In this document: positions 3,395-26,333 of the stretch, one piece after another
Position numbering within the stretch: position 1 is the stretch's first letter
How the letters are laid out: each line of letters opens with the position of its first letter
Assembly (NCBI GenBank): GCA_014885115.2
Contig: WKLE02000174.1
Span: 1-26,333, forward strand
Source of the DNA: Asterionellopsis glacialis
Lineage: Eukaryota > Bacillariophyta > Plagiogrammaphyceae > Rhaphoneidales > Asterionellopsidaceae
Direction: 5' to 3'
DNA: 26,333 nt
The notes under the pieces: model-generated
What the model was told of the DNA's origin: nothing
The model's input: the letters and a program-made list of their open reading frames with translations, nothing else
Databases searched by the model: none
Made by a program: the position numbers and the translations under genes

Positions 3395-4876
3395 TTATAA
3401 TTCTTGCAAGGAACATTTGATGGGAAATTCAAGTGGTCCTTCATTGGTGACAATAATGGTACATGATCCACAATTGGCGTATCCGTAGGGGATTTCAATA
3501 ATTCCTTGAAATCCTGATCCATCATCCGTGTAAACTTTAAATTTTTGTCGTGCTTCACCAGGTCCCTGTAAGACTTCCACCTTGACATAACATGGCATAC
3601 CATCCGTCTCAATATCGACTTGTATATTTTGGACCTGTGGGTTGGTAAATGTTTGTGTCAAGATGGATTTCCCTTGGATTGTTTTCATTCGTCCAGGTGG
3701 GGCATAGACACCATTACCATTTTGTCGTAACTGAGGTTCATGAGCCGAGCCGGTGGATGTTTCAACATGAGCTGACATGGGAAATTCCAAGGGACCTGTA
3801 TTTTGAACATCAACGGTATTGGAATATAGGGTAGGATTGTAATTTTTGAAATTGACACGCAAAGGACGTAAAAATCCATCTTCACTGTAGACCTTCATTT
3901 GACGTGCGGTATTGTCGGGGCCATTCCATATGTTGACCTTGGCATCAATGGGAGTGTAGGGATCTTGAGATTGTAAAATGACATCGGAGGAGCCATCACC
4001 ATAACCACCCCAACTCGAAGAGTATGTTTTACGTGAATTACCCTGAATTAAACCATTGGTACTGGAGACCGAATTTTGCCACCACGATGTTCCTGTACGT
4101 CTATTTTGTTCATGCCAAGGTTGTTGCTGTTGTTGATAGGGATCTCGGCTTTGTTGTTGTTGTTGATTTCTGTAGTTTCCACCAATTCCTGGTTGATAAT
4201 TCCGTTGTCCACCATAATTAAAATTAGGACGATATGGTTCATAAAAACTTTGTTGCTGTTGGTGCGTAGGAGAATTCCGTCCCTGTTGCATCAACTGTTC
4301 CTTTTGCTGATAGGCTGGATGATGTTGACGTGAGGCGGATGGTTGATACGGATCATACCAACGTCCTCCTCCTTGTCCAGCACCTAGCTGATCTTGTTGA
4401 TCTTGAATTCGTTGTTGATGAGCATATCGTGGTGCTCTTCCTTGACCGTACGGTTCGTACCATGAACGACTGTCTTGTTGCTGTTGCTGCATCTGTTGCT
4501 GACCACCACCGCCACCACCATTATCATCACGAGCTCCTCCCGTAGTTTCGTAGGATGAAAAAGGAACCATGGCCGATGTTTCATCTGACGCAAATGGATC
4601 TAAATTTACGTTTTCAAAAGGCATGTTAACATTTTCAAACGGATTAGGATTATTCTCTCGTACACCGACACGAGGACCATTGTTATTATTGTTGTTGTTG
4701 TTACGAAAGGCACCCGAGAATAACACCGTGCCATGAGTCGTAGTTTTACTACTCAACGGGACAAGAAACGCATTCACCTTGCAGCCGCCGGTATAGAATG
4801 GAGACGAATCCACAATGAGAATTAAAGTGACAACGCAACATGACGTAACGACCGAGGCATGTTTCATGATTTGCAA
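3395..4876 (-). CDS. Plastid-targeted Q-rich protein with duplicated C-terminal domain
   Basis: Intact single-exon ORF of 493 aa. The N terminus has a hydrophobic segment (about residues 8-22) and then NAFLVP around residues 35-40, resembling the A-F-x-x-P cleavage site of diatom bipartite plastid presequences. A second possible start is Met4. Residues of about 60-300 are disordered, rich in Q, N, G and R, with an aromatic word W/F-Y-E/D-P-Y recurring about every 35 residues (SWYEPYG, RWYDPYQ, SFYEPYRP). The C-terminal third holds two related modules. The first begins VNIWNGPDNTARQMKVYSED and ends TGPLEFPMSAHV (about 310-370). The second begins VEVLQGPGEARQKFKVYTDD and ends EGPLEFPIKCSL (about 430-490). 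The modules look all-beta. Function unknown; plastid location is inferred from the presequence only. Confidence 0.85.
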   Translation of the reverse strand: MQIMKHASVVTSCCVVTLILIVDSSPFYTGGCKVNAFLVPLSSKTTTHGTVLFSGAFRNNNNNNNNGPRVGVRENNPNPFENVNMPFENVNLDPFASDETSAMVPFSSYETTGGARDDNGGGGGGQQQMQQQQQDSRSWYEPYGQGRAPRYAHQQRIQDQQDQLGAGQGGGRWYDPYQPSASRQHHPAYQQKEQLMQQGRNSPTHQQQQSFYEPYRPNFNYGGQRNYQPGIGGNYRNQQQQQSRDPYQQQQQPWHEQNRRTGTSWWQNSVSSTNGLIQGNSRKTYSSSWGGYGDGSSDVILQSQDPYTPIDAKVNIWNGPDNTARQMKVYSEDGFLRPLRVNFKNYNPTLYSNTVDVQNTGPLEFPMSAHVETSTGSAHEPQLRQNGNGVYAPPGRMKTIQGKSILTQTFTNPQVQNIQVDIETDGMPCYVKVEVLQGPGEARQKFKVYTDDGSGFQGIIEIPYGYANCGSCTIIVTNEGPLEFPIKCSLQEL

Positions 4877-6576
4877 GGAGAAGGACGTTCGTTGTCTTGT
4901 CTCTTGCTATGCTTGCAACAGATCCGAAAGCAGCAATGGAACGAAAAGTGTACGAACACTGTTTGGTTGTAATGTTTTTTAGATCGAGAAAGATTATCTC
5001 GAACTAATAACACTAATAACAGTGTTTTTGATTTTTTTTTTTTTTCGTGTGCACCAAAAGAGTTACAAACGAGAAAGCTCTCTTCTTGTAGTAGAGATGG
5101 AACTCAAAAAGGTTGACGACGTGTTGACCTTGCTTTGTATCTCTCTATCGTTCTAAAAGTAGGGAATGTTCTTTTTTTTTAAAAACTTCGTTTTTATGTA
5201 GCTCGTACAAAGGACAGATGTCTTCAGTCCCGGGCATGTGTTTCGTGTCTCGAGCCTTTCCTCCAAGATGTTTCTGATTGGCGAACATGACAGATGTCGG
5301 TGAATGACGTGGCGTAGTCACAATGGATGTAGTACGTCAGCTGTTATCGGTATTGGATTTTGTGTTTTTGGATGGGTCGTACGTATGGTACGGTACGGTA
5401 CGGTTGAGTGGTGCTGGCTGACATTGTCACAAGAGTCTGGTGTCTTCCGCCGACACAAAACAGAGGTGTGTCTGTCTTTTCCCCAATCAAATAGACCAGT
5501 CGTACTCGTACTGTATTTTAATAATGTCAAACTCAAAAGTACCAAGATGAAGGAGATGTTCAACTCCAACCTTAGTTAGAGAGTAAGAACCTTGCATTCA
5601 CAAAGAGTCTAGAGCTAGAGCCATTGATGTCACTTCAACTTACGGGTTCTTGACAGTAACAGGTATCAGTAGTGTGACGCACAAACTTTGACAACCGACA
5701 GAGCCTGCCGTACCTCGAACGGCTGTCTCCTTCTTTCTCCTTTTTATTTTTAGAGATACCTTTTTTTTTAAAAAAAAAAGGAACTGATTTTCCCACCTTT
5801 GTTGAAGTTTGCGAAGCATGAACAATGACATCACTTGACATCATCTGGGACTCTAGTAGAGACTGTCTATCAAGAGTCCAGGGATGACAGGATACTGTAT
5901 CTCCAACACCTGCATCATGTGTGGAACTCTAGACTAGCTATGATGTCTCCTCCCTTGTTACAATTTTCTCAAGTGCAAAGGGGCAAAAGATAATACTGTC
6001 CTTTTTAAAAGAGACTGGACAAACGTATACAATGTTGTAAACAAATAATATAATTTCTTATTTTTAAAAAAATGTCTATCTTTTCACAACGCCTGTTTAC
6101 CAACCAAACCATCCATCCATCCTCCACCCATATACACAATATTCATCATCCCTTGTTCTTTCTTACACAATAATAAAAAGATAGACTTTTTTTCTTCTCT
6201 TGATGGAACTACACAAACTACTCTTGGATACGATACCCCCGCCCCGCCCCCCAGAACTTGATGAATTGTTCTTCCTATCTTGATGTTTTTTTTTGGGAAA
6301 TCTTGATCTTGGAAAAATGTATATAATATTATATAGAATAATAAATTTGAACCTGCTTGGCTTTTTCTTGACAAACACACAACACCAACATACAACAAAA
6401 TACATTATTATCATCCTCGTCATTTGACTAGAGACAGATAGCTTGGTATGATAATAATGAATAGTGCTGTTCTTGTTGCTATTGTTGTGACAAGAGAGAG
6501 AGAGAGAGAGAGAGAGAGTCTGTTACAAGCAAGGCCACTTTCAAACTCCCTTCTCTCTCGTCGTACAGTACTGCCT
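4877..6576. other. Intergenic region between the two low-complexity genes
   Basis: No supported gene on either strand; the small ORFs have no protein-like pattern. It contains the upstream region of the Q-rich gene and the 3' region of the N-rich gene. Visible elements are a T-run at about 5030-5045, a short GGTAC tandem (about 5387-5404), a TGACGT word at 5305-5310 with an inverted ACGTCA at 5334-5339, a T/A homopolymer palindrome at about 5761-5780, and an AG microsatellite near the 3' end. Confidence 0.5.
6493..6518. repeat. (AG)n microsatellite
   Basis: About 13 uninterrupted AG units (CT on the minus strand), 60-85 bp past the stop codon of the N-rich gene, so probably in its 3' UTR. 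Likely length-polymorphic. Confidence 0.9.
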
Positions 6577-8151
6577 TTACCAACGATCAGGTTGGGCACT
6601 TCGTATAGAACGGCCGTATCCATTGTAATTGCCACCGTATCCTCCATTGTAATTCATATTGTATCCGTATCCTTGATTGTATCCAGGTTGTTGGTACTGT
6701 TGTTGATAGACATAGTTACCACCTTGGTTGTATTCGTCATAATATCCATTGTAACGATTGTTATTCATCATTCCTCTAGCACCACGGTTGGGTGAATAGT
6801 ATCCGTTATTGTTCATGTTGTAATTACGACTATTGACACTGTTGTATCCATCATAGTCGTAATTGTTATTACGTCCATACATGCTGTTATTGTTATTGTA
6901 ACGTGTCATTTGACCATTACGTGTACCAAAACCATCATTGTCATAATAGTTACGTCCATAAAGGTTATTATTGTTGTTGTAATTACGATTCATGAGACGA
7001 TTACGGTTATTGTTGTAGCCATAGCCATTGACATTGTTATTGTAACCATTGTCGTACATCATGCCATTATTATTATTATAACCGCCGTAACCATTGTAAC
7101 CTACCTGTTTGCCATATCCATTGTAGCCACCTGCACGGTTATTGTACATATTGTTGTTGTACATGTTGTTTTGGGAGTACATTTGATCAGGACCACGGTA
7201 ATTGGCTTCCATGCGGTAGTTACTGTTGTTGTTCCTGTTGTAGTTGGTGGTGGAGTAGGAATTAAACATGGAGCCACCGTTGTTTCTGGCACGGGGATTG
7301 GTGTTATCCCACCATTGAGATCTTCCCCCATTGGTCAAGGGTTGTCTACGGTAGAAATTGGTGCTTTCTTCATCGTAGTACATGTAAGGATTGGTGCCAC
7401 GGTAGTTGTTCATGCTGCCGTATCCGTTCATGTTGTTGTTATTGTAGAATCTTGAATTGCGGTCCTTGTTGACAGAGGCGTAGGGAGAATAGTTTTGTTG
7501 GTAGTAACTTGACGTGTAAGGACCTTGATAATAGGGATCGCGATCTTGACGGTAGGAATTTCTTCTCATGGCTTCTTGACGCAAATGGCCTTGATTCTCG
7601 CGCACGTAGGAGTTTCTCGATTGAACGAGACCGCGGTTGTTCATGCCATTGTTGTACCCGTAGCCATTGTTGTAGCCATTGTTATAACCGTTGTTATAAC
7701 CGTTCTGGTTATTGTAGCTGTATTCGTTGTTGTTGTACATCATTCCGCTACCATTGTAGTTGACACCGTTGTTCATGCGTTGCTCTTGACGTCTGTATTT
7801 TTGTTTCTCCGACTCGGAGAGAGGCGGAAAGGTTCCACGAAGGTTCTTTTCGCCGCGACGAGACCTGTGATCGTACTGATGAGACCATGGTGAGTTATTC
7901 GATCCGTACAAGTTTTGGTTCGTGCTGTATCCCACATCGTTGTAATACGCTGACAAGCATGTAGACGATGTAGACGATGTAGACGATGTAGACGACGCAG
8001 ACGACTTGACACACTGCTGATTCTCATCAAGATCAACACCAACACGCGAAGGTCTTGTCACAATACTGCTTGGAGTAGGAACTACAAATGCAGTCACTTG
8101 ACTACTGATTTGAGCGACACCAAGTGCCACGGCAAACAAACTGAACTTCAT
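6577..8151 (-). CDS. Plastid-targeted Asn/Tyr/Gly-rich low-complexity protein
   Basis: Intact single-exon ORF of 524 aa. Residues 1-21 form a classical signal peptide and are followed by F22 in TAFVVP, matching the A/F cleavage site with a downstream Pro of diatom bipartite plastid presequences. A Ser/Thr-rich transit-like stretch with SST repeats follows (about residues 49-64). The rest is dominated by Asn, Tyr, Gly and Arg, with GYNNGYNNG-type tandem words (about 145-170) and scattered NNNN runs. More ordinary patches are SESEKQKYRRQEQRM (about 100) and RSQWWDNTNPRARNN (about 275). No folded domain is recognisable. The WW-D/Q-N word and the DPYY/PY words echo the linker of the neighbouring Q-rich gene, so the two may be diverged paralogs or functional relatives. 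The composition is prion-like and likely disordered. Function unknown. Confidence 0.85.
   Translation of the reverse strand: MKFSLFAVALGVAQISSQVTAFVVPTPSSIVTRPSRVGVDLDENQQCVKSSASSTSSTSSTSSTCLSAYYNDVGYSTNQNLYGSNNSPWSHQYDHRSRRGEKNLRGTFPPLSESEKQKYRRQEQRMNNGVNYNGSGMMYNNNEYSYNNQNGYNNGYNNGYNNGYGYNNGMNNRGLVQSRNSYVRENQGHLRQEAMRRNSYRQDRDPYYQGPYTSSYYQQNYSPYASVNKDRNSRFYNNNNMNGYGSMNNYRGTNPYMYYDEESTNFYRRQPLTNGGRSQWWDNTNPRARNNGGSMFNSYSTTNYNRNNNSNYRMEANYRGPDQMYSQNNMYNNNMYNNRAGGYNGYGKQVGYNGYGGYNNNNGMMYDNGYNNNVNGYGYNNNRNRLMNRNYNNNNNLYGRNYYDNDGFGTRNGQMTRYNNNNSMYGRNNNYDYDGYNSVNSRNYNMNNNGYYSPNRGARGMMNNNRYNGYYDEYNQGGNYVYQQQYQQPGYNQGYGYNMNYNGGYGGNYNGYGRSIRSAQPDRW
7961..8005. repeat. 9-bp coding minisatellite (five units)
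   Basis: Units of gtagacgat on the plus strand (three exact, then gtagacgac and gcagacgac), encoding Ser-Ser-Thr repeats in the transit-like segment of the N-rich protein. The 9-bp period keeps the frame, so length change would alter only the number of SST units. Confidence 0.85.
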
Positions 8152-8694
8152 TCTATCGTTTCTTTCGTTACTTGATTAGGTTTGGCGTTTGGTTCGTTAC
8201 TGCGTTAGTTACTTTGCTGGTGCTTTGTTTCAAACTTTAGACTAGGACTAACTAAGTAATACTCTCTCTAGGACTACTCACTGTACAGGTAATGAAGCAA
8301 GTCGACGAGAGATTCAAATCACAGACAATAAGAGAGTGAGTGAATGAGTGATATGTAGTGACACCTTTTGGTTTTTTTGTTTGAAACGGCAAGAGTCCTA
8401 CACCTACAATACTTACCAGACTCAATGTAGGACTTTAGCAGGGCAGAGCAAAGTGAGAAAAAAAAGAACAAATAATCACCAGCATGCCATACATACGACG
8501 ACTACACGATTATGTTATTTTATTCAAATCGCAATCCACATACCACACACACCTATTTCTCGTACAATCTACGTATAGACACCTACCAAGAAAAACTTGA
8601 TTTGCACTCGCTGTGCTGGCACTTTTGGAAGGATCGGAGTGCGTGACGTGAGCGAATGAGAAAGGAGTCTCCTACTGTACACGGTCTGTAAAAA

Positions 8695-9806: not shown

Positions 9807-11140
9807 CTAACGGCGAAGGTATCTTCTATTCCTCTGCTGCTGGTCAAAGAGAGTCGTAGTGGGGAATGGAGTAAAGGAATCCATGTTTGGCACAATGGTT
9901 TGCAAATCTGCACTATTCGCACCAACCCATTCAGCAACACCAGGCCAAATTTGGTCCCAAGACGTAGTGGGGACTAAACGACCCCGTGACAAAACTTGAG
10001 GACTCTCGGTTGTCATGTCCGTAGGGTACTCTCCAAGAATCTTTCCTCCATTCACGCCACCACCAAACATGAAATAATTCCCTCCCCATGCATGATCGGA
10101 TCCACCACCACTATTGGCAGTGAGCGTTCGCCCAAATTCAGATGCTTGAACCAAAACTACATCATTCCACCTTTCTTGAGCCACCATTTCTTGGTGGAAA
10201 GCTGTCAATCCAGCATTCACTTCTGTGAAACGACTAATTAATCTCTCTTCCACGTCCGAGTGAGTATCCCATCCTCCAATACTAAGATAAAACACATCCG
10301 CATCAACACCTCGAATTCCACGAGTCTTGATCAATTTGGAAATGATGGACAATTTTCTTTCCAAACTTGTGGATCCAAAAGACACTTCTGTTGTAGTTGC
10401 AACCAGTGTATTGTACAAAAGTTCATTCTGAGCCAAAGAATCCATCAGAGAATTCGACCATGTCTTGGCAATGAAACCACTGTGGGCAGCCGTAGCATTG
10501 TTCAGATCTCCCATGACAGCCTTCATCTCTTCCCTCGTCATGGACGCCGTATCCTGGGGCATGAATTGTCTTACCCCAGTGTTACTAATAGTACTGGTCG
10601 GAGGAGTTCCAGAGCCTGGCTTGGATGCAGCTGCGATACTGTTGGAGTCAATGGATGTCTTTCCTGGAGAAAGACCCTTCTTGGCAAGAGCATCCGCAAT
10701 TCTACCAAGGATACCAGTACCGATATCCTCGTCAAATACGTCTGCTCGCTTTGCTTCTCTCTGCATACCGTTGTGCGCAAACAGCTGTGTTGGAGTTGCA
10801 TCTCTGTAACCTTGCTTTGTAGAGGGTGCCCCAAGAACGCCAGTATTTGTAAAGAAGATCAGGTCATTATCATTGTACAGCTGCTGCAAGATTGGAAGAT
10901 TTGGATGCACTCCAAATTTGTCACAACTCGCTTTGCCATTGGAATTGATTTCCAGGAGCGTACTGTTCAATAAATGAATGGGCGACCTTGTATTGGCATA
11001 GTGATTGTACGCATCTTGACTTCCATCTGGATGTGTATGGCATACCTTCGGAACAAGCATATTCCAACTGTCACAGCCCCCGCCAAAGAATAGGAATACA
11101 ATAGCCTTGTACTGCGCTGATGTATTAGGCTGTGGGGTTA
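9807..11140 (-). other. DUF1501 domain (alkaline-phosphatase-like superfamily)
   Basis: The C-terminal part of exon 12, about residues 2970-3400. Visible family motifs are IVFLFFGGGCDSWNMLVP at the start (Asp in the metal-site position), IFFTNTGVLGAPS, a helix-rich middle (NALMDSL-like), FYLSIGGWDTHSDVEERL, VQASEFGRTLTANSG, and GGSDHAWGGNYFMFGGGVNG followed by GKILGEYP. The Asp, D-T-H, E-F-G-R-T and S-D-H sequence positions match metal-ligand motifs expected for DUF1501, a sulfatase/alkaline-phosphatase-fold family, so a hydrolase is possible. The protein ends RNRRYLRR then TAG at 9807-9809. No substrate can be deduced. Confidence 0.75.
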
Positions 11141-14100
11141 CAGGTGCTGGCAATGCCTCACCGCTGAACGATAAAGCATTCGTGGTGTGATATTCTGGAC
11201 TTGTCGTCATCAACTGCTGAGCTATGCGCAATCCGTCAGCGGGATTTGGTGCCGCCTCGTATGCATTCGCGATGATCTGCCGACTTTCTTGGTTGAGTCT
11301 TCCAGATGTTAGTAGAAGGGCAAGCTCATCAACAATATCAATTGCAGAAGTACCGGTTGGTTCAAAGGTTAATGTACCAGACGCTCTGTTATATGAACCA
11401 TCTTGGCAACTTCCAGATCCAATATTCCATTTAGCAAAGCCTACAAGATCGGATAGAATTGAAGAATCCACAAATGAGAAAGATATCGAGTCTGTCATAC
11501 TAAATACGTGATAGATATAAGATGCGATACGTACCATAGTCTTCGCCACCTGTTTGGTAGCATTCTGCGAACCCGTACTTGACCAAAGAGTGCAACCCAT
11601 TGATCAGATCGATAGTCTTGGGCATGTCGAGGATTTGCGTTTCAGGAGCTACTAGCGTCGCGGAGTTAACGGGACCATCTGGAACATATTCAGGTAAGAA
11701 AAATGAAAACACTGTTTCAAACTCATGGGGCATTTGTCCAATTCGATTTTCCTAATGGTACAAAGTTGTCAAACAAGCGCTTGTTAGAATTGAAAAGAAC
11801 GCAAAACAGATGCGATCCACAAGACACCTCTATCCATTACTTACCATTTCTCTGAAAACGGCCACACGACGTTCTCCCTTTTGGTTATTGTTTTTTAGTT
11901 GAAATTGCATGTTCCTCATGAAACCAATCACGCGAAGTATGGGCTCTCGCAGAGATCCATGTGCCGGCTCTACATCAAGTACGACTGCACGTGCCTCCCT
12001 ATCCAACAGAATGCTTGCTACAGTAGCAGCAAGATCTCCATATTTACCGCTGCCGTATGTGTGACCGGGTACTTCATAGAGACCATTTCGGAATGCAAAT
12101 GAACAAGATTTCACAAATCTCGGACTTGCATTCGAGATTCCGAAACGCTGGATAAATCGAGTACATAAGAAAGGAGCTGTGTTGTCATGATAGAAGTAGT
12201 GTTCAAGCGCTGCTTCAGTCTCGTAAATAGCATCGCGTCTGTTAGTTTCGCTTGGTACCAAACTCATAAAGTGAACTGGATTTCGAAAGGTAGCTCCAGC
12301 TGACAGATCATTACCGCCCATGAGCTGCACAGTAGACTTTGCATTCTTCCTAAAGTGCGTGCGACCCTTTTCATCCTGAATCTCAAAGATTGTGTCCATC
12401 TGATAACCGTTACCCTTCGTGTGAACTTTGAAACCATTAATTTCTGCAACTGTATAGATAGGTCCAAAACTAGCTGGGTCGGGCGCTCCAATAGTCAATG
12501 TTGACAACACTGTTGCGGCATCCGGAGGATCGGTGCTAAATTCAATGGAATCTACCACCAAAGTATCACAAATGCAATTCTTTTCTGCATCGCTTTCGCA
12601 TACCCCACAATCGTTAACCTTCTGTTTAGGATAATCACCTGACCAATTGACAGTAAAGAAGTTTCTAGTATCAGCATCAACGTGCGAAACTATCGGATTA
12701 TCGATTGCAGTAACGTCGTGTACAATAGCAGCCTCCCCTTCAGAGTTTATTTTGACCCTAATCCTGCACGCGGTCTTTGCCCAATGGTAGGTGTTTCTTA
12801 GATAAGATGACTGGCCATTGTCGACACGGTCGTACTCACATGCCTGGTATTAAATGATGATCCAAGTTTAAAAAAGAAATAAGTGAGAAGGGTAGATATA
12901 AACTCTCCAACGAATCAACACCTTCTGTCAACTTACCAATCTGTCCAGGGCATCGCAGCGTGCTTCCATAGTATCAAAGGTCATTCTTTCAATATCATAT
13001 TTATTACTAGAGATTGCGTCAATCGTCCCTGACATCGGATTTTCACAACAAGCGGAAGTCGCAATAGGTAGGAGCGGGTTGCCACAAATAGGGCTTTTGT
13101 TGTCAGTTTCCTTATTAAGCTTCACACCATTTTCAAAGAAGGGCTGTTCTACACAAGGAGGCTGAATATACTCATAGAATAGCCCATCCACAGAAACAAC
13201 TCGTACAGTATCAACTTCGCACTCATCTCCAAAACAGTTGATGTTATTTTCAATAACAAGATTCATTGGGAAAGAACACGAACCATCAATAGCTGCGCAC
13301 AAGACGGAATACAATCCAGATGACTGCTCCAAAATGAATCGGTTAGCTAGGCGAGAATCGTCTTTCATAAGCTCGGGCAGAGCCGAGCTTCCAAGTAATC
13401 GATACTTTGCTCCTTTTTTGAGGAATTGTTGTTCTGGGAGATCGCTACATAGAGGGTACCCATCACCAAGATATCCTCCGTATAGATTGCTTTTTGGAAA
13501 TCTGTCTCGCCACTCCGGAATAATCTTCATGGGATCGATACGATTTGTATTCCTGTCTTTAGATTCAAAATTGGCCCGAATATTTTGCCTGGTGAATCCT
13601 GTCCATGCCCTGGCGAACGAGCGGATATGCTCGTTTGTGTATGTTTGTTGGGTTCCAGGCTTCGGCGTACCATCTAAATTCAATTCGAGAAGCCCAATGG
13701 AAAAAAGTTGCATGATCTCACGAGCAAAGTTCTCATCTGCGAACTGGATTCTTTGATCTGCTTCCCAAACATACGCCGTGGATTTAGAGTTGAGATATGA
13801 CAAGTTCTCAGCCATCAGAGGACTATAGCTGATCTCCCTCAAAACGTCCAAGTAATTTCCAAATGCGTTTCGTACAAAAATATCGTAGTAGTTTAGGAAT
13901 GGTTCAGTGTCTTCGTCCTGACTCGAAATCGCTGTTTTGGCTATTACAAGGATTTGACTCAATGCCCAAGCCATACGCTGCCTTAATTGATCTGGTTCGT
14001 AAAGAGCAATATTGGCCCATACAGTTTCTCTTTGTCTGCCTAAATCGCTACCAGAGACCGTCTGGCGGTCGGATTTCGCGATGACGTCAAAGTCTTTACC

Positions 14101-17100
14101 CAATGCCGGTTCATTTGCAACCTCTCCGGGGCTTCCACAAACAACCAAGCCGGAACCTGAAGATGAAGTTGTCACACCAAAATACTCAGCAACTTGGTCT
14201 AATCTCAGTTCACTTGTAAGGTCACGGAAATCCATGCTGTCACCCAATCTTCCAATTTTCTCAAATTTTCTGTTGTTCGTGTCCCATCTCATCATTGGGT
14301 GGTTGAACGTTGAATCTTCAGGATGTGTGCTGGGGTATGTGATGTAGTGTTTACCATCCTCAGCCCACTTCTTGATGGGGTTGCGTCTATCATTTGATGC
14401 TGCAACGGAATTACCACTGAGAGAATAAAAAAATATGTTAGGTGAAATTCGCTTTTACAAAATGAATTGGTGATCTTATATGAGTACACAGGATTTCTTA
14501 CGGATGCGTGTTAGGGCTTGCCCAGTATGTTAGATCCCAAACACTTAGATGTTCTGGGTGGACATGTGTCCAACAATCACTTCCAACCTCGATCTGAATG
14601 TATGCGCTCATCTCAACTTCCATGTCAGCAGCGTCACACTGAGTACTTTTTGGGAATGTAATATCACGAACGTGGGGATTTTCATCAGTGGAACTGGAAA
14701 TCAGACCCGCTAGAATCGATTTAGTAGAATCTGTAAGATTTGTAGGATTTTGGCAGCCACCTGCCATCTTGGTCCACCTACTCCTGTGTCCTTCTTTCTT
14801 GCAGGGATGATCGACAGTATTCATGCCTTCCTGTGTAACAACTAAGCCTTCCATTGCATACAAATACCTCTGAGTCAAGTTCTGTAGCGCAACGATGTTT
14901 GTGCTGTTGAGAACAAATGTAGTATCTGGGATGGGGACAGATCCACATGCCGTAGGCTCGTTGGACAATATGCAAGTCTCTTCGTTAAGGAACGAGCGTG
15001 GAGCATTTGAGCATTTCGTCTTTAATCCAGTGCTTAGCACTATCGAACCCCCACCGTCAGAGATCTTGTTCTCGAGCGTATTTGTTTCAAAGCGTAGTCG
15101 AGGATCCCAAATCAAGTAACCCAATGTGTCGTGCTTACCAAACACAGGAGTATTAAAATCTTCCGACTGTTCAGGTAAGCTATTACACACCTGTTCGCTC
15201 AAGCCATTGGTTAGTATGAATCGATCGCTTTCACCATCGCCTAGATAATCATCGATGGATTGAAGGCCGTTCATTGGGAGAGGCAACGCGTTGGTTACAT
15301 GAGACTCATAACCTTCAAAGTTTATCGGAGGATTTCCAATATCACGCGAAATCTCTTCACAATTGCCAAGCTCAGTTCTTAGATAAAATCTACCACCAGT
15401 GTATTGATAAGGGTTTTTGCATATTTCATAGGCAAAGGTAGAATTCCAGGTAGGGAAAAGAGCCTGTGTATCAGAATTACGCCAAATCAAGTCGGGGACA
15501 ACTGTACGAGCGTGATTGTCTACTTCAAGGATATATGGACCTGCCGGGATTGATTCACCAGTTGCTGGATCTGTGGTGGACGTTTGACCCTTAACATAAA
15601 CGAAACCATAAGGGTATTCGGAATCCTTAAAATCGTCGTCACGTACAAAACTGAAGCGACGCCAACGCGAATTTGCCCTACAAGGATGATCCGACCTTGC
15701 ACTATTATGAGAATACAACCACCTTGGATTCGCACGCTTTCTAAAATACTCTCTGTGACTTGTTGGTGCTATCTTCATCTGATTAGAGATCCACTCTTCT
15801 TCTGAACTAGCTCCAAAAGCAGCGAGGTCGCTTTTTGTGGTCCCAAATGTACCCATTTCTAAGAAACGAGCACCAATTTCTTCCTGTGTTAGATTGTACT
15901 CATATGATGACAAGACGTAACTTTCTCCTGTTGCAGGTGTTGAAAGTTGAATTGTACACAATCCATCTTGACAGCTGATACTCCCTTCATAGAGTACAGA
16001 CGAGGCATAAGAACCAGGAGCAACTTCCCAGTCATTACCATTGTAAGAACGGGCAACCGGTATAACTGCAGTCACTTCACCCTCTCCGTTAGTGATAACT
16101 TTTGTCAAGGAACACAACGTAGTACTGATCACATAGGGATGGTCCCAATGCATGATGGTACGAGAAGTACCTGGTGTGCCACACTCATTGTCATAGCCAG
16201 TAGGAGAGATAGAGGGAGTGCTAGAGGGAGCACCGGATGGACTTGCACTCGGTGAAGACGTTGGATTGGCACTTGGCGAGACCGAAGGGGATGAGGTTGG
16301 TGAAGCCGACGGTGAAGCTGAAGGCGAAAACGATGGGCTTGCACTTGGTGAGCCTGAGGGCGATGCAGAAGGATTTGCGGTGGCGACCGCCTTTGACAAC
16401 TTAAAGTTGTCAACAACCAGATCCCAATTCTTGTTGAAGTCCCTCACCACTGAGTTTTTTTTAAAATAGAAAAAGTGAGTCAGTGTGATTACATGCGCTA
16501 CATTTGCTGCAATAGAAGGCAGGAAGGAAAGAAACATAGACCAACTTACTGATATAGGCCTGAACGATTTTTGCATTACCAGCTGGAATTGTGAAGAAAC
16601 TGTGAATAGGATAATAATACCAATGCATGTGAGCTACCAAGGCTTGTATTACGTATGGAGTCGGCGTAAAAGTGTCTTACCTTCTGAAATGGTTGAAACT
16701 ATTTGGATCCCAGTCTGAAGCATAGGCATCCTTATACATGACTGCATTGACACGCTTAGGCTTAGGATCTAATAATACTCCGTCTTCATCATACATGTAA
16801 ACACGAACAGCTGGACATCTTACTGAGGCTCGTGTGCTAGTTTTGTCACACATCACTCCTGTGCCGTTATTGTAGAGAAGTCGGATATCAAGATTCACTT
16901 CAAAGTTGCCTTCGTCGAAACAGCGGAAATCCGAAAAGTACCTGGACTCATATTCAAGTCCATGCCAAGTCCTTTTTTTGGGCCCTTCAACTTTCACTGC
17001 TGCACTTTGAGTGGAAGGATCAATATATGCTCTATCAAAGTTTCCGCTGCCATATTCATCCCATAGTTCGCCAAAACCTCCATCGATGCCAGCATTGAGT

Positions 17101-20100
17101 TCAAGGTCACCGTCACATTCTGCCTGATAATCAACCATAGAAACATCATCAACAATGAGGTAGTGATCATTTATCATATTGGTGAACCTGAACACGATGG
17201 TACTTTCTGGATTGGCATCTCTACTGGTGGCAATATAGTAGCCTTCGATCCTTCCCCATCCATCAGTATCCTTAGCCATGTACGTTCGAGCAGCTGTCTT
17301 GTATGTGTCCTCCTCGCCACTCAAGCTGTTCTTTAGCTGTACACGAGGGCTGTGGCATGCAAAAAAGAATTGACCATTGAGAATACATTGTGCCCACAAC
17401 TGATAAACCATTATGTGATGTAGCATAGCTGTACCACTTACCACTTATTTCCACATTCCACGATTGTACCTGTGCTGTCTTTCAATTGGAATCGAGCACT
17501 AATCTGCTCAAAAAAGATCATGCATACGAATTATCTTAATGTGAGAGCTGAAGAACAATACATGGGAAGGATAAACTATAGAGACCGAACTCACCTTGTA
17601 TGTATTCCCTTCGATGAAACACCCTGGGTTCAAATATTGTTGTCCAGATCCATCGTACACTGACAATGCGTAGTCCTCAACTCCCTCAATTCCCTGAGCG
17701 ACTGACATTGTTCCTGTGTATTCGCTCCAGTGTTCGGCAATGCCCGACGCAAAATCACCATTGACAATAATATCAGAGCACTCGTCAGCCAGGAGTGTCA
17801 TAGAGACGTTGTCGATAAACATTTCATAATTAGCCCTATTCCTCTCGATATAGAAGAGAGTCGAATGGGCGTTGGCAACCTCTGCGAGGATCGAATATAT
17901 TTGCATGAAAACGATTAGTGGTGTTAAGGTTGGGAATTCGACAGGATAAGTAAACAAAAATGGGTCTCACAAAAAGCACGAATGAACTCTTTTCTAAGCT
18001 TACCATCAGGAATTGTGAAGACGCCATGAATCAATTGGTAATCTTCAGGGCCAAAATGGAATGATGTTTTGGCAACAGGTTCTTTGTACCAAGTTTTCAT
18101 CTTGAGTCCATTGGCATGTGGAGTTCGCGTAAGAATGCCAACTTCAGGGCATTTGTCAGTGGCTTCGTCACACAAGTAGACCTGACCATTCTTCATCAAT
18201 TTGACCCAGGCACGAATTTCATACCGGCGTCCCTTCACAAGACATCTCGAGTCCAAATACTGGCTGATGGAACCATCAGCAAGGTCATGGTTAATATCAG
18301 CAAATGCGTTGCTTCCATCCAGTCCTTCTCCGACGACAACTTGGATACCGTTATGTCTGTGAAGCCAGTGGATATGTTGGGTGGTGCTTGCTTCGGCATC
18401 ACCATTCCTAATTAGATCGTTACATTGATTGGGGAGAAGGGCAGGAGCATGAATTTCAATATCTCCAGAAGAGAATGAGGGTTGACACTGTTCTTCCTCG
18501 TATATTTCTTCGACGAATGTAGGCCAAACCACATTGCCGGCTCCATCAAGGTATGTTGCTTTATAGGAACCGGCTGGCAACGATGCAGCAAACATGCGTA
18601 AGCGAGATGAATCTGTATTTTCCAGTTCTGTGGTAGACGGATCAAAGTTTCCCGGGATTAGAACACAAGTGTCGGAAGTCATATCACAAACTTGCAATTT
18701 GTAATCTTGTGTGTCAGCAGGATCAATCTTGGTAGTCAGGGTACGGTAACACGCATTGCAGTATGCAGAGCACATCGATTCTGTGACAACACAATCTGCA
18801 AAGTCAGTCATGTAGCGTTGATTACTAACAATACTTGACACTCCCGTAAAGGATGAACCACTGGGTTTCATACTACTATCCAAATCTGTGATGACAACAT
18901 CATCATGACCATCATCTGCAGCACTGCACAATTCAAAGTTATCAGGCGTGTCTTCGATATTGATATTCTTCATCCTGGTAGCCCAATCAAAGTGGGTCCA
19001 CTCAACTTCATTGTCAAAGTAGAATGCATGAATGTCACATCCTACCATATCAGTAAAGCCCGAAAAGTCGACGTTCTCAACTACAAGGCCAGTTTCGAAT
19101 GTATCTTGCCAATACATATAGGGAAACAACTCAATACCTACAACTCGTTCTGAGCCACAGTGTTTTCTAAAACCAGACTGTTGGTCTACTAATTGGCGGA
19201 ATTCTGGAGAGACTCCAATGATAGATAGATCGGAGATGAGATTATCATCACCTCGATTAAGATTTATCTGCCTTTCATTGTCGGCAAGGATTCCACCAAC
19301 CAATGCAATGTTAGAGTTATCTCGCATGTACACTCCATCATCCCTGTTACGAAAGATTAGTGAGTTTGTAAAAGAGGCACGTAAGGGGGGCCTGTATTTC
19401 TCCAATTTAAATCCATGCTATTGGTACGAGGGATCGCACAAGAAAAATTGTAAAGAAAAGAGAGATGAGACATATTGAATAGGAAATATCACATATCGTA
19501 CGTCTACATTTGTTGTGTATACTTACATCATCATTGCTGTGGGCAACATTGTCTTTAAATTCTCCAAGTAGTTGGTACCTCGGTTTGAGATCAGGAAAGT
19601 CATTGTGAGCCGGGGCTTTCACATCGCTAGGTGGTGTAATCCAGAATCCCTATATACGGTGAGTTCAGACAACAAAACGATGAGGTGAGATTCACAGGTC
19701 AGAGGTATACTCAAGAAGTGAATTGATATTGAAGATAAAGTTGCAGTCTCCTTCCGTAGTTAGTACGACAGAAGTAAATTTTAGTAAAGACACTTACATG
19801 AGAATCCGACCCAGCTGCAACATTTTTCACGACAGTGTTCGTAACACTGTAAAAAAAGAATGTAGCAGCATCATTATCTTTTTGTTCTGACGAAGGACCA
19901 TTTTTGGTACGTGCACCAAGGTTATTCGATATGACATTATTTTTTTCAGATCCAGTTGATAACATATAGCAATGTCCCAGAGTATCATATGCAACATTTT
20001 GATCGACGATAACTCCATTGGTACCTGTCAAAACAATACAACGATGGTTCGAATTTCGCACGGTATTCTTGGAGACAAGTGTTCCTGTTGCTATATCACC

Positions 20101-21156
20101 ACACATATAAAATTGAAGTGGGTATCGATCAGATACTCCTTCTTGTCCAAAGTTTTGAAATTCAACACCTGATATAATTTGTTTTGATGCTGTTGCGTAC
20201 ACTACCATGTGTCCACCATGTGAGGGATTGATGCTATCATCGTCAGCACCCCGGAACACAATGTTACGAGACAGCAATGCTACCTCTGTAGCATAATTAG
20301 CATTGTCTACACCAAGACTAGGTTTAACAATAACATCATTGAGTTCAACTTCCATCATACCTGGGTGTTCAGTTGAGGGAGTTACACCTGTAATAGTACG
20401 TACTTGTTCTTCATCAGAATCCAAACCGTGAGGTGTAATGACAACTTCAGCACCTGGTAGCCACTTATCTTGAATGGAATTATTCACAACAATCTTGTTG
20501 AGTGCTGGAGCATTCTTGGCAATGTCATAAATAGGTAACCATGTGGGTGTAGTCTCGTCTGGGATACCATGGATCTTGACTTGGCCGCCATAGACCACGA
20601 ATGGTTTTTTACTAGTAATACTTGGAGCGGAGCTGTCAAGAGCTATGTTATCTGTACCAGTCATGACAACATTAATAGCTTCTTCACCATCAATGGCTTT
20701 GGTAGATGTTGCTTCAAGATACCCTTTTACGAAAACAAATGGTGTTACAATTGTAACTGCGGTACCATCGGGAAATTGTAATTTACCTTCAATTACCAAT
20801 CCGTTTTGAAACACATGCATGGAACCGCTTTGATCAAATGAAATACATTGACCACAAGGGATGACCACCTTATTCGCGTGCGTAGTGGTCCCAGTACCAA
20901 ACAAAGAGGACCATGTTGTGGTACATTCTGTGGACATGTCGATCCCTTCGTTACATGCAAGAGGTCCTAAAGGGGTTATCAAGGAACGATGTTCTTGATC
21001 CTCTTGAGGAACATGATTTTCTTCTTGAATTTGAACATACTGATTGTTCGTAGGGACATCGTTCGTCGTATGAACGGGATGACTTTCAGCAGTCACCATC
21101 ATGGCCGTCATGGCCATAGTCCCAAGGAAACAAAAGAATGATCCCGACTTGGTCAT
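9807..21156 (-). CDS. Giant secreted G8 / beta-helix / CBM-like / DUF1800 / DUF1501 protein, 12 exons
   Basis: Proposed exons (minus strand, 5' to 3'): 21156-19798, 19649-19527, 19417-18004, 17881-17595, 17503-17442, 17349-16681, 16599-16550, 16449-14502, 14416-12937, 12843-11845, 11751-11535, 11440-9807. All introns are GT-AG, with donors GTAAGT, GTAAGA, GTAAGC, GTGAGT or GTACGT. Lengths are 148, 109, 122, 91, 92, 81, 100, 85, 93, 93 and 94 nt, and the phases join perfectly. Total coding length is 10,242 nt (3,413 aa plus TAG). The start is the ATG before a clear signal peptide (about 23 residues). Domains: G8 and right-handed beta-helix (about 60-690), three CBM-like modules (about 820-1345), Ser/Pro linker (1347-1406), split DUF1800 (about 1520-2957), DUF1501 (about 2970-3400). 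Expected to be exported and glycosylated; it may act on or bind extracellular polysaccharide (inference). Alternatively this could be two genes; the in-phase 50-nt exon at 16550-16599 argues for one. Confidence 0.8.
11181..15860 (-). other. DUF1800 domain split by two large insertions
   Basis: Coding parts of exons 8-12. The domain starts with FLEMGTFGTTKSDL and HREYFRKRANPR (about residues 1518-1560), resumes with EPDQLRQRMAWALSQILVI, FGNYLDVLREISYSPLMAE and ENFAREIMQLFSIGLLELN (about 2110-2240), then SFARAWTGF. It resumes again with FLCTRFIQRFGISNASPRFV and KYGDLAATVASILLD, then MPHEFETVFSFFLPEYVPDG and ELALLLTSGRLNQESRQIIA. These are hallmark DUF1800 segments. About 540 residues (about 1565-2105) and about 420 residues (about 2260-2680) of non-family sequence, Cys-rich in part, lie between them. 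Typical bacterial members are about 450-600 aa. Biochemical function of the family is unknown. Confidence 0.75.
16196..16375 (-). other. Ser/Pro repeat linker (SPSx/SPxx units)
   Basis: 60 residues made almost wholly of Ser, Pro, Ala, Gly and Thr, with SPSAS, SPSGSPS and SPTSSPS units, at about residues 1347-1406. It separates the sugar-binding part from the DUF1800/DUF1501 part. Such linkers in diatom secreted and wall proteins are likely extended and O-glycosylated or hydroxylated (inference from composition). The four-residue rhythm in DNA makes it prone to expansion. Confidence 0.85.
16385..18430 (-). other. Three tandem CBM-like beta-sandwich modules
   Basis: Each module opens with Cys-x-x-(x)-N-G-(D/x) (CNDLIRNGD; CSDIIVNGDF; CDGDLELNAG), then a Trp or Tyr segment, a middle Q-Y/Y-L/I-(x)-C-x-x-G-(x)-Y or R/S-YF-x-D-F-R-C segment, and closes with an Asp-rich strand (YEMFIDNVSM; YLIVDDVSM; WDLVVDNFKL). 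Approximate spans are residues 822-1000, 1000-1155 and 1157-1345. This matches the general pattern of CBM_4_9-like modules that bind polysaccharides. Introns 3 to 7 fall inside the modules. Exon 7, only 50 nt (16550-16599), encodes TIPAGNAKIVQAYI in the third module, where module 1 has FTIPDEVANAHST across intron 3. The modules are strongly diverged; the CBM label is by pattern, not by search. Confidence 0.6.
18004..19649 (-). other. Exons 2-3: end of the beta-helix and first CBM-like module
   Basis: Exon 2 (19527-19649, 41 codons) begins GFWITPPSDV and ends LLGEFKDNVAHSNDD, matching the Gly-Phe-Trp and GEF-x-x-N-x-AHS segment of CEMIP-like beta-helices. Exon 3 (18004-19417) starts HGFKLEKYRPPLR and continues with FTNSLIFRNRDDGVYMRDN and further helix-like strands to about residue 690. 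A Cys-rich stretch follows (CSAYCNACYRT). From about residue 822 the first sugar-binding-like module begins (CNDLIRNGDAEAS, HIHWLHRHNGIQVVVGEGLDG, then YLDSRCLVKGRRYEIRAWVK) and runs to HGVFTIPD at the exon end. Confidence 0.7.
19798..21156 (-). other. Exon 1: signal peptide, G8 domain and first part of the beta-helix
   Basis: 453 codons, ending in phase 0. Residues 1-23 are a signal peptide (hydrophobic core FFCFLGTMAMTAMMV). The G8-type pattern follows at about residues 80-200: KVVIPCGQCISFD, NGLVIEGKLQFPD, FVFVKGYLEA, then VVYGGQVKIHG and a Trp-Leu-Pro segment. The region from about 290 on has the layered short strands of PbH1 repeats: VALLSRNIVFRGAD, HGGHMVVY, GVEFQNFGQ, RYPLQFYMCGD, NSNHRCIVLTGTNGV and LGHCYMLSTGSEKNNVISNN. 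The last word matches the conserved GH-x-Y/F-x-x-x-x-G-x-E-x-N segment of CEMIP/TMEM2/PKHD1L1 proteins. Family assignment is from motif pattern. Confidence 0.75.
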
Positions 21157-25280: not shown

Positions 25281-26333
25281 TTGTCACACATTGCTCAAAC
25301 AAACTGTTCTAATCAGATTCAAATATCAGCTGAGTCATCCACCACAAATATCAGACAAATTCCAACCAGTGTTAGTGTGGTGGAGACACTACCACCTACT
25401 GATGAAGTTTATTGTCAGAATACCACCACATCCAACACCAAGGAAAATGATTTTTTTATACTTGCTTGACAACACATTAGGTATTGAAAATATATATGCC
25501 TTTGATGTTGTCTTAACATAGGCCAAAGACTCTCTTGCCTCCAGAGTTGATTTTAAAAAAAAAAAATCCATCAAGGAGAATGCTTCTGGAACATTTTTCA
25601 AGTTGGTTTGGAGATAATGCAAGCCTTCTAACAAAGGGGAACGCCCCCCCCCCCTACTAACACAGTTGCTCTTGATAGAAGATCCTGGGATGCAGTGGCA
25701 GTTCCTCATTTTGATTTTATAGATCAGATTACAGATCTACATTACAATTGCTTGCTGTTTTCAGATATCGGGAACCCTGTAGTTAATAAAGATGATCCAT
25801 TTGGTATTTCAAACCATCAGAAGCAATGAGGCCCTCTCTCGTTCTTGGTACAAGGAAACTGTACAGAAATCAAGCATCAATCTAACAACAGATCTTGTGA
25901 ATCCCTAAGTGTTTTTCATAGACAAATTGCCTGCCACAATCTTAGTAAGACACAATCTTGAGCCTGTCATGTTTCTTTCTTGTCCAGAATCTTGGAGACC
26001 CCTAGGTTATATTCCTGATTTGGGATGTATGTCAAATGCTAGGAATAGATCCTGTTATACAAAATCCAGAAGGGGTCAATCTATCCAAAATTACCATATG
26101 ATGTTGAAGACTATACTGCACTCTTTGTCATCTGTCCAGAAAGATGGTTTATTGATGCATGTTAGAATTGGTGATAAAATATCTTTTTTTTTTTCAATTG
26201 CCTACATAATTGGTGATTGTAAAAGCTGGGATGTCCTAGCCAGTAGGTATGGTGGTTACACCAATATTGCAAGAATTAGTTGTAGTTGTAGTTGTCTCCT
26301 TTCATTCCAGGACACCAATGTGTTTATATCAAA
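25281..26333 (+). pseudogene. Decayed DDE-type transposase-like ORF (Plavaka/KDZ-like, tentative), runs off the window
   Basis: The core is from about 25580. Successive frames give MLLEHFSSWFGDNASLLTKG, a frame change at the C11 run (25644-25654), RRSWDAVAVPHFDFIDQITD and VVNKDDPFGISNHQ, another frame change near 25825, then NEALSRSWYKETVQ, a TAA near 25906, VFFIDKLPATILV, EPVMFLSCPESWRPLGYIPD, GQSIQNYHMMLKTIL, and after a T-run IAYIIGDCKSWDVLASRYGG. The last segment is open at the window edge. The order SWYK, FFID, W-x-P-L-G-Y-I-P, then I-I-G-D with a Cys-x-Cys cluster resembles cut-and-paste transposases of the Plavaka/KDZ group known from fungi, with similar ORFs in stramenopiles. Upstream, 25281-25540 may be its N-terminal part. 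Two frameshifts plus a stop make it inactive. Confidence 0.6.
25644..25654. repeat. C11 homopolymer at a frameshift
   Basis: Eleven C residues precisely where the transposase-like reading changes frame. The frameshift could be real slippage decay, or a sequencing/assembly length error at the homopolymer. Confidence 0.8.

Follow-up and report, generated by a model that had tools for sequence, protein, structure and literature searches.

Genes for DUF1800 and DUF1501 proteins, two bacterial partners of unknown function, are already known to lie in tandem, and one report states that most bacterial chitin synthase (chs) genes lie together with a set of genes including both (PMC5122149). A second group of proteins, represented by CEMIP and TMEM2, combines a G8 domain with a right-handed beta-helix, into which a beta-sandwich and a lectin-like domain are inserted in TMEM2, according to the structure report (PMC10206443). 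Features of both systems were found together in a single gene of the diatom Asterionellopsis glacialis, located in a stretch of 26,333 nucleotides (contig WKLE02000174.1, referred to here as the window). The gene has the same two DUF domains in the same order and on the same strand as the bacterial tandem; they are separate genes there and one polypeptide here, with two large inserts in DUF1800, a cytochrome-b5-like block and a CEMIP half added. Like CEMIP and TMEM2, the predicted protein has a G8 domain and a CEMIP beta-helix, but it differs from them in the lack of PF15711 and of an insert and in its fusion to DUF1800/DUF1501; its relatives carry an insert between G8 and the helix, which resembles the situation in TMEM2 with its domains inserted in the helix. 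No report of an algal DUF1800-DUF1501 fusion or of a diatom CEMIP protein was found in the open-access literature.

The presence of a real diatom gene with this domain architecture is, judged from the sequence, close to certain. A dynamic-programming splice search initially returned a single chain of 11 exons coding for 3,433 residues. This model was dropped as it read through one short intron (16549-16450), and the addition of this intron and of a 50-bp exon (16599-16550) gave a 12-exon version, which was preferred because the small exon restores a conserved stretch, 'FFTIP...IVQAYIMVRDFNK..DLVVDNF', common with the closest relative, P0001. The 11 introns are 81-148 bp long and all of the GT-AG type, and no internal stop occurs in the 3,413 codons. 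With the three frames of the exons pooled, 4.3% of codons are stops, so an open frame of such length is not due to chance. P0001 is 3,755 residues long and 72% identical to the window protein over 3,361 aligned residues, and 11 of 11 junctions were ungapped (±4 residues) in the alignment of the two. The more distant P0003, P0019 and P0008 align over the full length, with gaps at some junctions. P0001 would account for 11,265 bp of its 11,562-bp source contig, leaving about 300 bp noncoding, and the contig is presumably complementary DNA; the transcript evidence for the gene model comes from relatives, not from A. glacialis itself. The structure proposed in the preliminary description of this DNA (12 exons, 11 GT-AG introns, 3,413 codons plus stop) was in this way reproduced, and its claim of a single polypeptide is borne out by one-protein relatives, by the ungapped junctions with P0001 and by single-frame paralogs. 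The features of the gene are as follows.

9807-21156, minus strand: full coding sequence in 12 exons, 3,413 codons and a stop; ATG at 21156, stop ending at 9807
21156-19798, 19649-19527, 19417-18004, 17881-17595, 17503-17442, 17349-16681, minus strand: exons 1-6
16599-16550, 16449-14502, 14416-12937, 12843-11845, 11751-11535, 11440-9807, minus strand: exons 7-12
21085-21156, minus strand: probable signal peptide, residues 1-24, from hydropathy only
20542-20880, minus strand: G8 domain, residues 93-205, by Pfam
19409-20220, minus strand: CEMIP/TMEM2-type right-handed beta-helix, residues 313-497, exons 1-3, by Pfam
17784-18433, minus strand: CBM_4_9-like module 1, residues 823-998; alone 1e-3 and 19.9 bits, below the cut-off
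17124-17786, minus strand: CBM_4_9-like module 2, residues 998-1157; alone 25.7 bits, just below 25.9
16385-17126, minus strand: possible third module, residues 1157-1343, suggested by a similar pattern
16196-16375, minus strand: Ser/Pro-rich linker, residues 1347-1406; PT repeat below the cut-off
15710-15910, minus strand: DUF1800, first piece, residues 1502-1568, by alignment to the bacterial profile
14047-15709, minus strand: insert 1 in DUF1800, residues 1569-2094 (526 residues), not in the bacterial proteins measured
14284-14575, minus strand: cytochrome-b5-like block within insert 1, residues 1947-2015, by profile similarity
13462-14046, minus strand: DUF1800, core piece with DENFARE, residues 2095-2289, by Pfam and alignment to the bacterial profile
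12241-13461, minus strand: insert 2 in DUF1800, residues 2290-2665 (376 residues), no Pfam match
11572-12240, minus strand: DUF1800, C-terminal piece, residues 2666-2857, by alignment to the bacterial profile
9957-11111, minus strand: DUF1501, residues 2980-3364, with GGGCD, GGWDTH, SEFGRT and SDHAWGG; predicted alkaline-phosphatase/sulfatase-type fold

All domains named in the preliminary description (G8, CEMIP helix, carbohydrate-binding module (CBM), DUF1800 and DUF1501) exceeded their Pfam cut-offs in a scan performed with the 3,433-residue (11-exon) version of the protein. DUF1800 (PF08811) and DUF1501 (PF07394), on whose presence in the joined protein that description depended, were found at 2e-47 (162.5 bits against a cut-off of 26.1) and 2.5e-31 (109.7 bits against 27), respectively. 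In the N-terminal half, G8 scored 1e-7 (32.3 bits, cut-off 22.9) and the CEMIP beta-helix 8e-48 (163.4 bits, cut-off 27.3); Beta_helix and NosD also passed their cut-offs. Similarity to TMEM2 (PDB 8c6i, cell surface hyaluronidase) extended over residues 231 to 423 in exon 1 (E=1e-21), and PF15711, listed for the vertebrate and mollusc TMEM2-type matches P0186 and P0187, was absent from the Pfam list of the window protein at E<=1. CBM_4_9 (PF02018) was detected in the whole protein at 1e-8 (35.7 bits, cut-off 25.9), and a Pfam scan of the third module alone (residues 1157-1343) gave no meaningful match. Among all 19-residue stretches of the protein, the one with the highest mean hydropathy (1.48) falls within residues 1-24, the runner-up, an internal stretch, reaching 1.42; the protein is probably secreted.

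The alignment to the bacterial profile divided the window DUF1800 into three pieces, with the DEN[YF]ARE motif kept as DENFARE at residue 2198. The two interruptions are a general property of the fused-type proteins: measured by the spacing of strict motifs, the median of the first gap was 568 residues in fused-type (n=74) against 79 in bacterial proteins (n=24), and that of the second 496 (n=76) against 117 (n=66). A structure model of a bacterial DUF1800 (L024:5683-7356) was mostly helical, with a predicted local distance difference test score (pLDDT) of 89 and a predicted template modelling score of 0.88, and a Foldseek search of the PDB with it returned no match (best E 0.7). The bacterial DUF1800 is, on this modelling, a confidently predicted, unexplored fold without a PDB counterpart.

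Insert 1 contains a block resembling cytochrome b5, which the preliminary description had missed. Its consensus across the family reads 'HVHPD..NVYDFTyW..HPGN....NPI.kWA..G...L.FP..H.M.RW', and the candidate heme ligands of the window protein are His1970 (HPGN) and His2010 (NHPMMRW). Of 99 rows, 97% retain the HPG histidine, and the second histidine is retained by 94% of 100. Seven of eight pieces, hand-picked and mostly HPGG-reading out of 64 diverse ones, matched Cyt-b5 and nothing else in Pfam, three of them over the cut-off (best 1.5e-7). A profile of 14 pieces, the window included, in all of which both candidate histidines are invariant, placed cytochrome b5 first among PDB sequences (E=2.5e-4); of the 60 PDB rows listed, the first 46 were b5-bearing chains, cytochrome b5 and flavocytochrome b2 among them, with antibody chains appearing from E 0.06 on. 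The block is predicted to bind heme.

For DUF1501, the Foldseek search with the model of the window domain gave 34 matches at E<=0.001 (best E=2.4e-5), all of them sulfatases, phosphonate monoester hydrolases or LtaS/LtaP-type proteins. A sulfatase/phosphatase-type fold of the alkaline phosphatase superfamily is the assignment made from the model. In 39 of 40 aligned DUF1501 sequences, the motif residues are intact: the Asp in GGxD, both Asp and His in DxH, and the SxFxR and DH motifs. The 40th (L100) ends at its contig edge. Weak matches to Phosphodiest (best 0.0053) and Sulfatase (best 0.056) were each noticed in two of 15 fusions. The DUF1501 exon had no match among PDB sequences at E<=1, and NCBIfam gave none over the cut-off for the four proteins tried.

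The search of the A. glacialis assembly (40.3 Mb, 1,503 contigs) revealed that the gene is one of a family. DUF1800 was detected on 15 contigs and DUF1501 on 15, the fifteenth of the latter being a sub-threshold match, with both domains in order on 14. The giant gene announced in the preliminary description thus exists without being unique: of 14 DUF1800-DUF1501 loci, two carry G8/CEMIP. The second of these, C859, has the full G8-CEMIP-CBM-DUF1800-DUF1501 order with 22-50% identity to the window. At four of the 13 other loci, a count from which introns or the strictness of the motifs may hide the rest, the DUF1800 C-terminal and DUF1501 motifs lie in one open frame (707-1,447 residues); as the uninterrupted frame holds both, the fusion there needs no splicing. 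CEMIP beta-helix matches with no DUF1800/DUF1501 match were also found on contigs C400, C905, C73, C106, C1278 and C1186.

The fusion of the two DUF domains is widespread in diatoms and occurs also in dinoflagellates. The domain order of the window was found again in Cyclotella cryptica P0008, and the MMETSP transcript protein P0003 and Chaetoceros debilis P0019 (in which CBM was not listed) carry CEMIP and DUF domains and align with the window along their length. Algal fusions share the fused core and, in the rows covering it, the b5-like block. Most of the listed proteins lack the CEMIP helix that the window protein has: in precomputed Pfam data counted by hand, it occurred in 17 of 65 long protein matches, P0008 and C. 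cryptica P0011 included. Both pennate and centric diatoms, as well as dinoflagellates (Symbiodinium, Durusdinium), have fusions without the helix. Of the entries lacking it, P0002, P0005, P0006, P0010 and P0016 begin mid-protein, and others, P0023 and P0024 among them, begin with a hydrophobic N-terminus of their own. Counted in the same way, CBM_4_9 was present in 17 and CBM_35 in seven of 156 proteins listed, the second protein search contributing to the list 120 of its 217 matches.

The origin from a bacterial gene pair, assumed in the preliminary description, is supported. Of 572 confirmed bacterial stretches, the 80 ranking best were retained, and in 80 of 80 a DUF1800 gene was followed by a DUF1501 gene on the same strand; in none were the two fused. 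The spacing ranged from -50 to 600 bp in 79 of them, the remaining one showing an overlap due to the chosen start codon. A quick tree, with support from the Shimodaira-Hasegawa-like approximate likelihood ratio test (SH-aLRT) only, was built from these 80 pairs and 123 fused rows, i.e., the window and the 122 of 156 proteins that spanned both DUF domains (34 were left out). A single branch parted fused rows from bacterial pairs with an SH-aLRT of 100, and a single algal origin of the DUF1800-DUF1501 fusion is considered very probable. The shortest path from the window to a bacterial row led to Opitutales (Verrucomicrobiota). All 16 CEMIP-helix rows fell inside one supported set of 37 rows, mixed with 21 rows without the helix, and the CEMIP half may have been gained once.

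Two related claims stood only in part. G8/PbH1 had been regarded as typical of eukaryotes, and it is not confined to them, as a bacterial control, Deinobacterium chartae, was over the G8/CEMIP cut-off. The joining of the DUF pair to a sugar-binding part, proposed in the preliminary description, is present here, but some bacterial DUF1800 proteins also carry such modules: among 14 long ones from the 80 loci, sugar-binding modules were over the cut-off in three, below it in two and not found in nine. Those over the cut-off were CBM60 (nine times) and PA14 (twice), the latter a domain that binds sugars. The bacterial DUF1800 protein at L089:1642-7365 carries nine CBM60 stretches in its front part.

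These data can be brought together in one explanation, to which a probability of roughly 0.5 is assigned: the gene encodes a secreted diatom fusion protein of about 375 kDa that processes cell-surface polysaccharide. The algal fusion would have arisen once from the bacterial pair through loss of the intervening stop codon, and the sugar-handling half would have been joined on in one diatom lineage. The protein would act extracellularly, or at the wall during its formation; the CBM modules and the beta-helix may hold, and possibly cut, an anionic polysaccharide, and DUF1501, with its sulfatase/phosphatase-like build, may act on sulfate or phosphate esters by removal or transfer. Its partner would be DUF1800, serving with the heme-like insert as a scaffold or as a module for electron transfer. 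As to the role itself, the processing of cell-surface polysaccharide is plausible and about as likely as not, its chemistry being a prediction. The bacterial pair was known before; the b5-like insert and the family, by which a bacterial gene pair became a multi-copy algal set of large, probably secreted proteins, go beyond the earlier finding. The existence of a one-polypeptide form in diatoms is a good argument for joint action of DUF1800 and DUF1501, and the CBMs, the sulfatase-type fold and the probable heme domain suggest assays for both.

A bolder form of this proposal makes the algal fusion a redox-coupled extracellular carbohydrate enzyme built of DUF1800, a b5-like heme domain and a sulfatase-fold partner, the secreted, CEMIP-armed machine of this diatom lineage cutting, desulfating and oxidising the polysaccharide of its own wall. 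It would draw on an analogy with Verrucomicrobia, where DUF1501 stands beside cytochrome-c proteins, and is considered rather doubtful. In two Verrucomicrobia genomes, DUF1501 was located at most 1.1 kb downstream of 36 of 39 PSD1 matches (hand count). In five of six Verrucomicrobia DUF1501 loci (all except L147), DUF1501 closely follows a long gene that contains one or two CxxCH motifs; PSCyt2 and PSD1 were detected in all five of these genes, PSCyt1 (cytochrome c) in four and a LamG-type lectin in three, one of them over the cut-off. DUF1501 thus lies beside heme and lectin modules as in the window, but the cytochrome is of the c rather than the b5 type and the genes are separate. Homology of DUF1800 to PSCyt2/PSD1 (DUF1549/DUF1553) was considered and rejected (hhalign probabilities of 0.6%, 2.4% and 1.5%); since none is detectable, the parallel is one of organisation only. 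For freshwater Verrucomicrobia, one study proposes that PSCyt genes have a carbohydrate-related role, on the ground that some of them carry CBMs (PMC5615132); its main text does not name DUF1501. In another study, the domains over-represented among upregulated Emiliania huxleyi genes include DUF1800, with two of 10 genes (PMC7563939).

A number of observations weigh against the explanation of a secreted, polysaccharide-processing fusion. To our knowledge, no activity has been described for DUF1800 or DUF1501. The one line of evidence for secretion is hydropathy. The DUF1501 model has a mean pLDDT of 73 and its Foldseek matches have low template modelling scores (~0.3), so that alignment detail is poor; the candidate metal-site Asp/His motifs are kept, but no catalytic nucleophile could be assigned. 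The histidine invariant in 31 bacterial DUF1800 sequences (L024 H283) aligns to Arg in the window and the function of DUF1800 may therefore have shifted. The window's own b5 piece had no Pfam match, Cyt-b5 (PF00173) included, at E<=10 and reads HPGN where HPGG is expected. Many copies of the block are divergent, as one of the 15 full fusions scanned reached Pfam Cyt-b5 and the HPG histidine is missing in P0046, P0055 and P0061. As to history, the bacterial sample was ranked by a two-half query and consequently favours tandem pairs, 46 of 203 tree rows have an odd letter make-up, and the named fused rows are diatoms or dinoflagellates, most of the 122 being without an organism name. To account for the CEMIP label, the tree requires 10 changes, at least nine of them forced by supported branches, and a one-time gain of the CEMIP half is for this reason not established; entries starting mid-protein may account for part of these changes. 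Finally, the authors of the TMEM2 structure observed no degradation of hyaluronan and were unable to identify an active site (PMC10206443); others disagree (PMC10474455), and the hyaluronidase activity of TMEM2 is disputed (PMC10474455, PMC10276149).

Some of these points would suit a structural or adhesive protein of the wall or mucilage, its domains binding polysaccharide and each other with no catalysis. The Ser/Pro linker and the CBM-like modules agree with such a role, as do the lack of an assigned nucleophile in DUF1501, the replaced DUF1800 histidine and the lack of hyaluronan degradation reported for TMEM2. The conservation of alkaline-phosphatase-type metal-binding Asp/His motifs in 39 of 40 DUF1501 sequences is not predicted by it, and this alternative is considered unlikely, if not markedly so. 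A secreted phosphatase or sulfatase scavenging nutrients, anchored by its CBMs to organic particles or the cell coat, would account for the resemblance of the DUF1501 fold to sulfatases and phosphonate hydrolases and for the weak Phosphodiest and Sulfatase matches in fusions, but it leaves the conserved DUF1800 partner and the heme-like insert unexplained and is judged quite unlikely. A service in polysaccharide synthesis, as suggested for the bacterial chitin-synthase operons containing DUF1800-DUF1501, has the co-localisation with most bacterial chs genes (PMC5122149) in its favour. A chitin synthase is present in those operons, whereas no match to PF03142 was found in the diatom genome despite 14 fusion loci, in a search that covered one synthase family in a possibly incomplete assembly and matched four of 14 control genomes. 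With the family present also in pennate diatoms and dinoflagellates, this alternative is regarded as improbable. The weakest one, that the gene model wrongly joins two neighbouring genes, can point to intron 11534-11441 close to the DUF1800/DUF1501 boundary and is next to negligible, since relatives carry the whole or near-whole domain set in one protein, the junctions are ungapped against P0001 and paralogs have a single open frame spanning that boundary.

One peculiarity of the window copy concerns its sugar-handling half. The spacing between G8 and the helix was 341-493 residues in all 16 CEMIP-bearing long matches with both parts (of 17) and three residues in the window protein (20541-20530, exon 1). 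In shorter metagenomic proteins, it was 2-3 residues in four, 138 in one and 365-370 in two. P0001 has an insert of 374 residues at this point, which the window protein lacks; C859 contains its counterpart (24% identity, E 3e-23). The insert of P0001 had no Pfam match and by eye resembles CBM modules. A comparison of the sequences suggests that the window copy lost an insert of about 374 residues that its closest relative has kept.

Other open frames were also noticed in the window. The C-terminal part of a 503-residue open reading frame at 3395-4906 on the minus strand gave a match to the diatom pyrenoid shell protein family (PF25192, 2e-41), which marks the DNA as that of a diatom. The N-terminus of this frame, containing VNAFLVP, which we take to be a plastid-targeting motif, resembles a plastid-targeting presequence. 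An open reading frame of 532 residues at 6577-8175, also on the minus strand, is rich in Asn, Tyr and Gly and has a similar N-terminus, VTAFVVP, with no Pfam match. At the window edge, an open frame on the plus strand (25909-26331) gave a sub-threshold match to a Plavaka transposase (0.0072).

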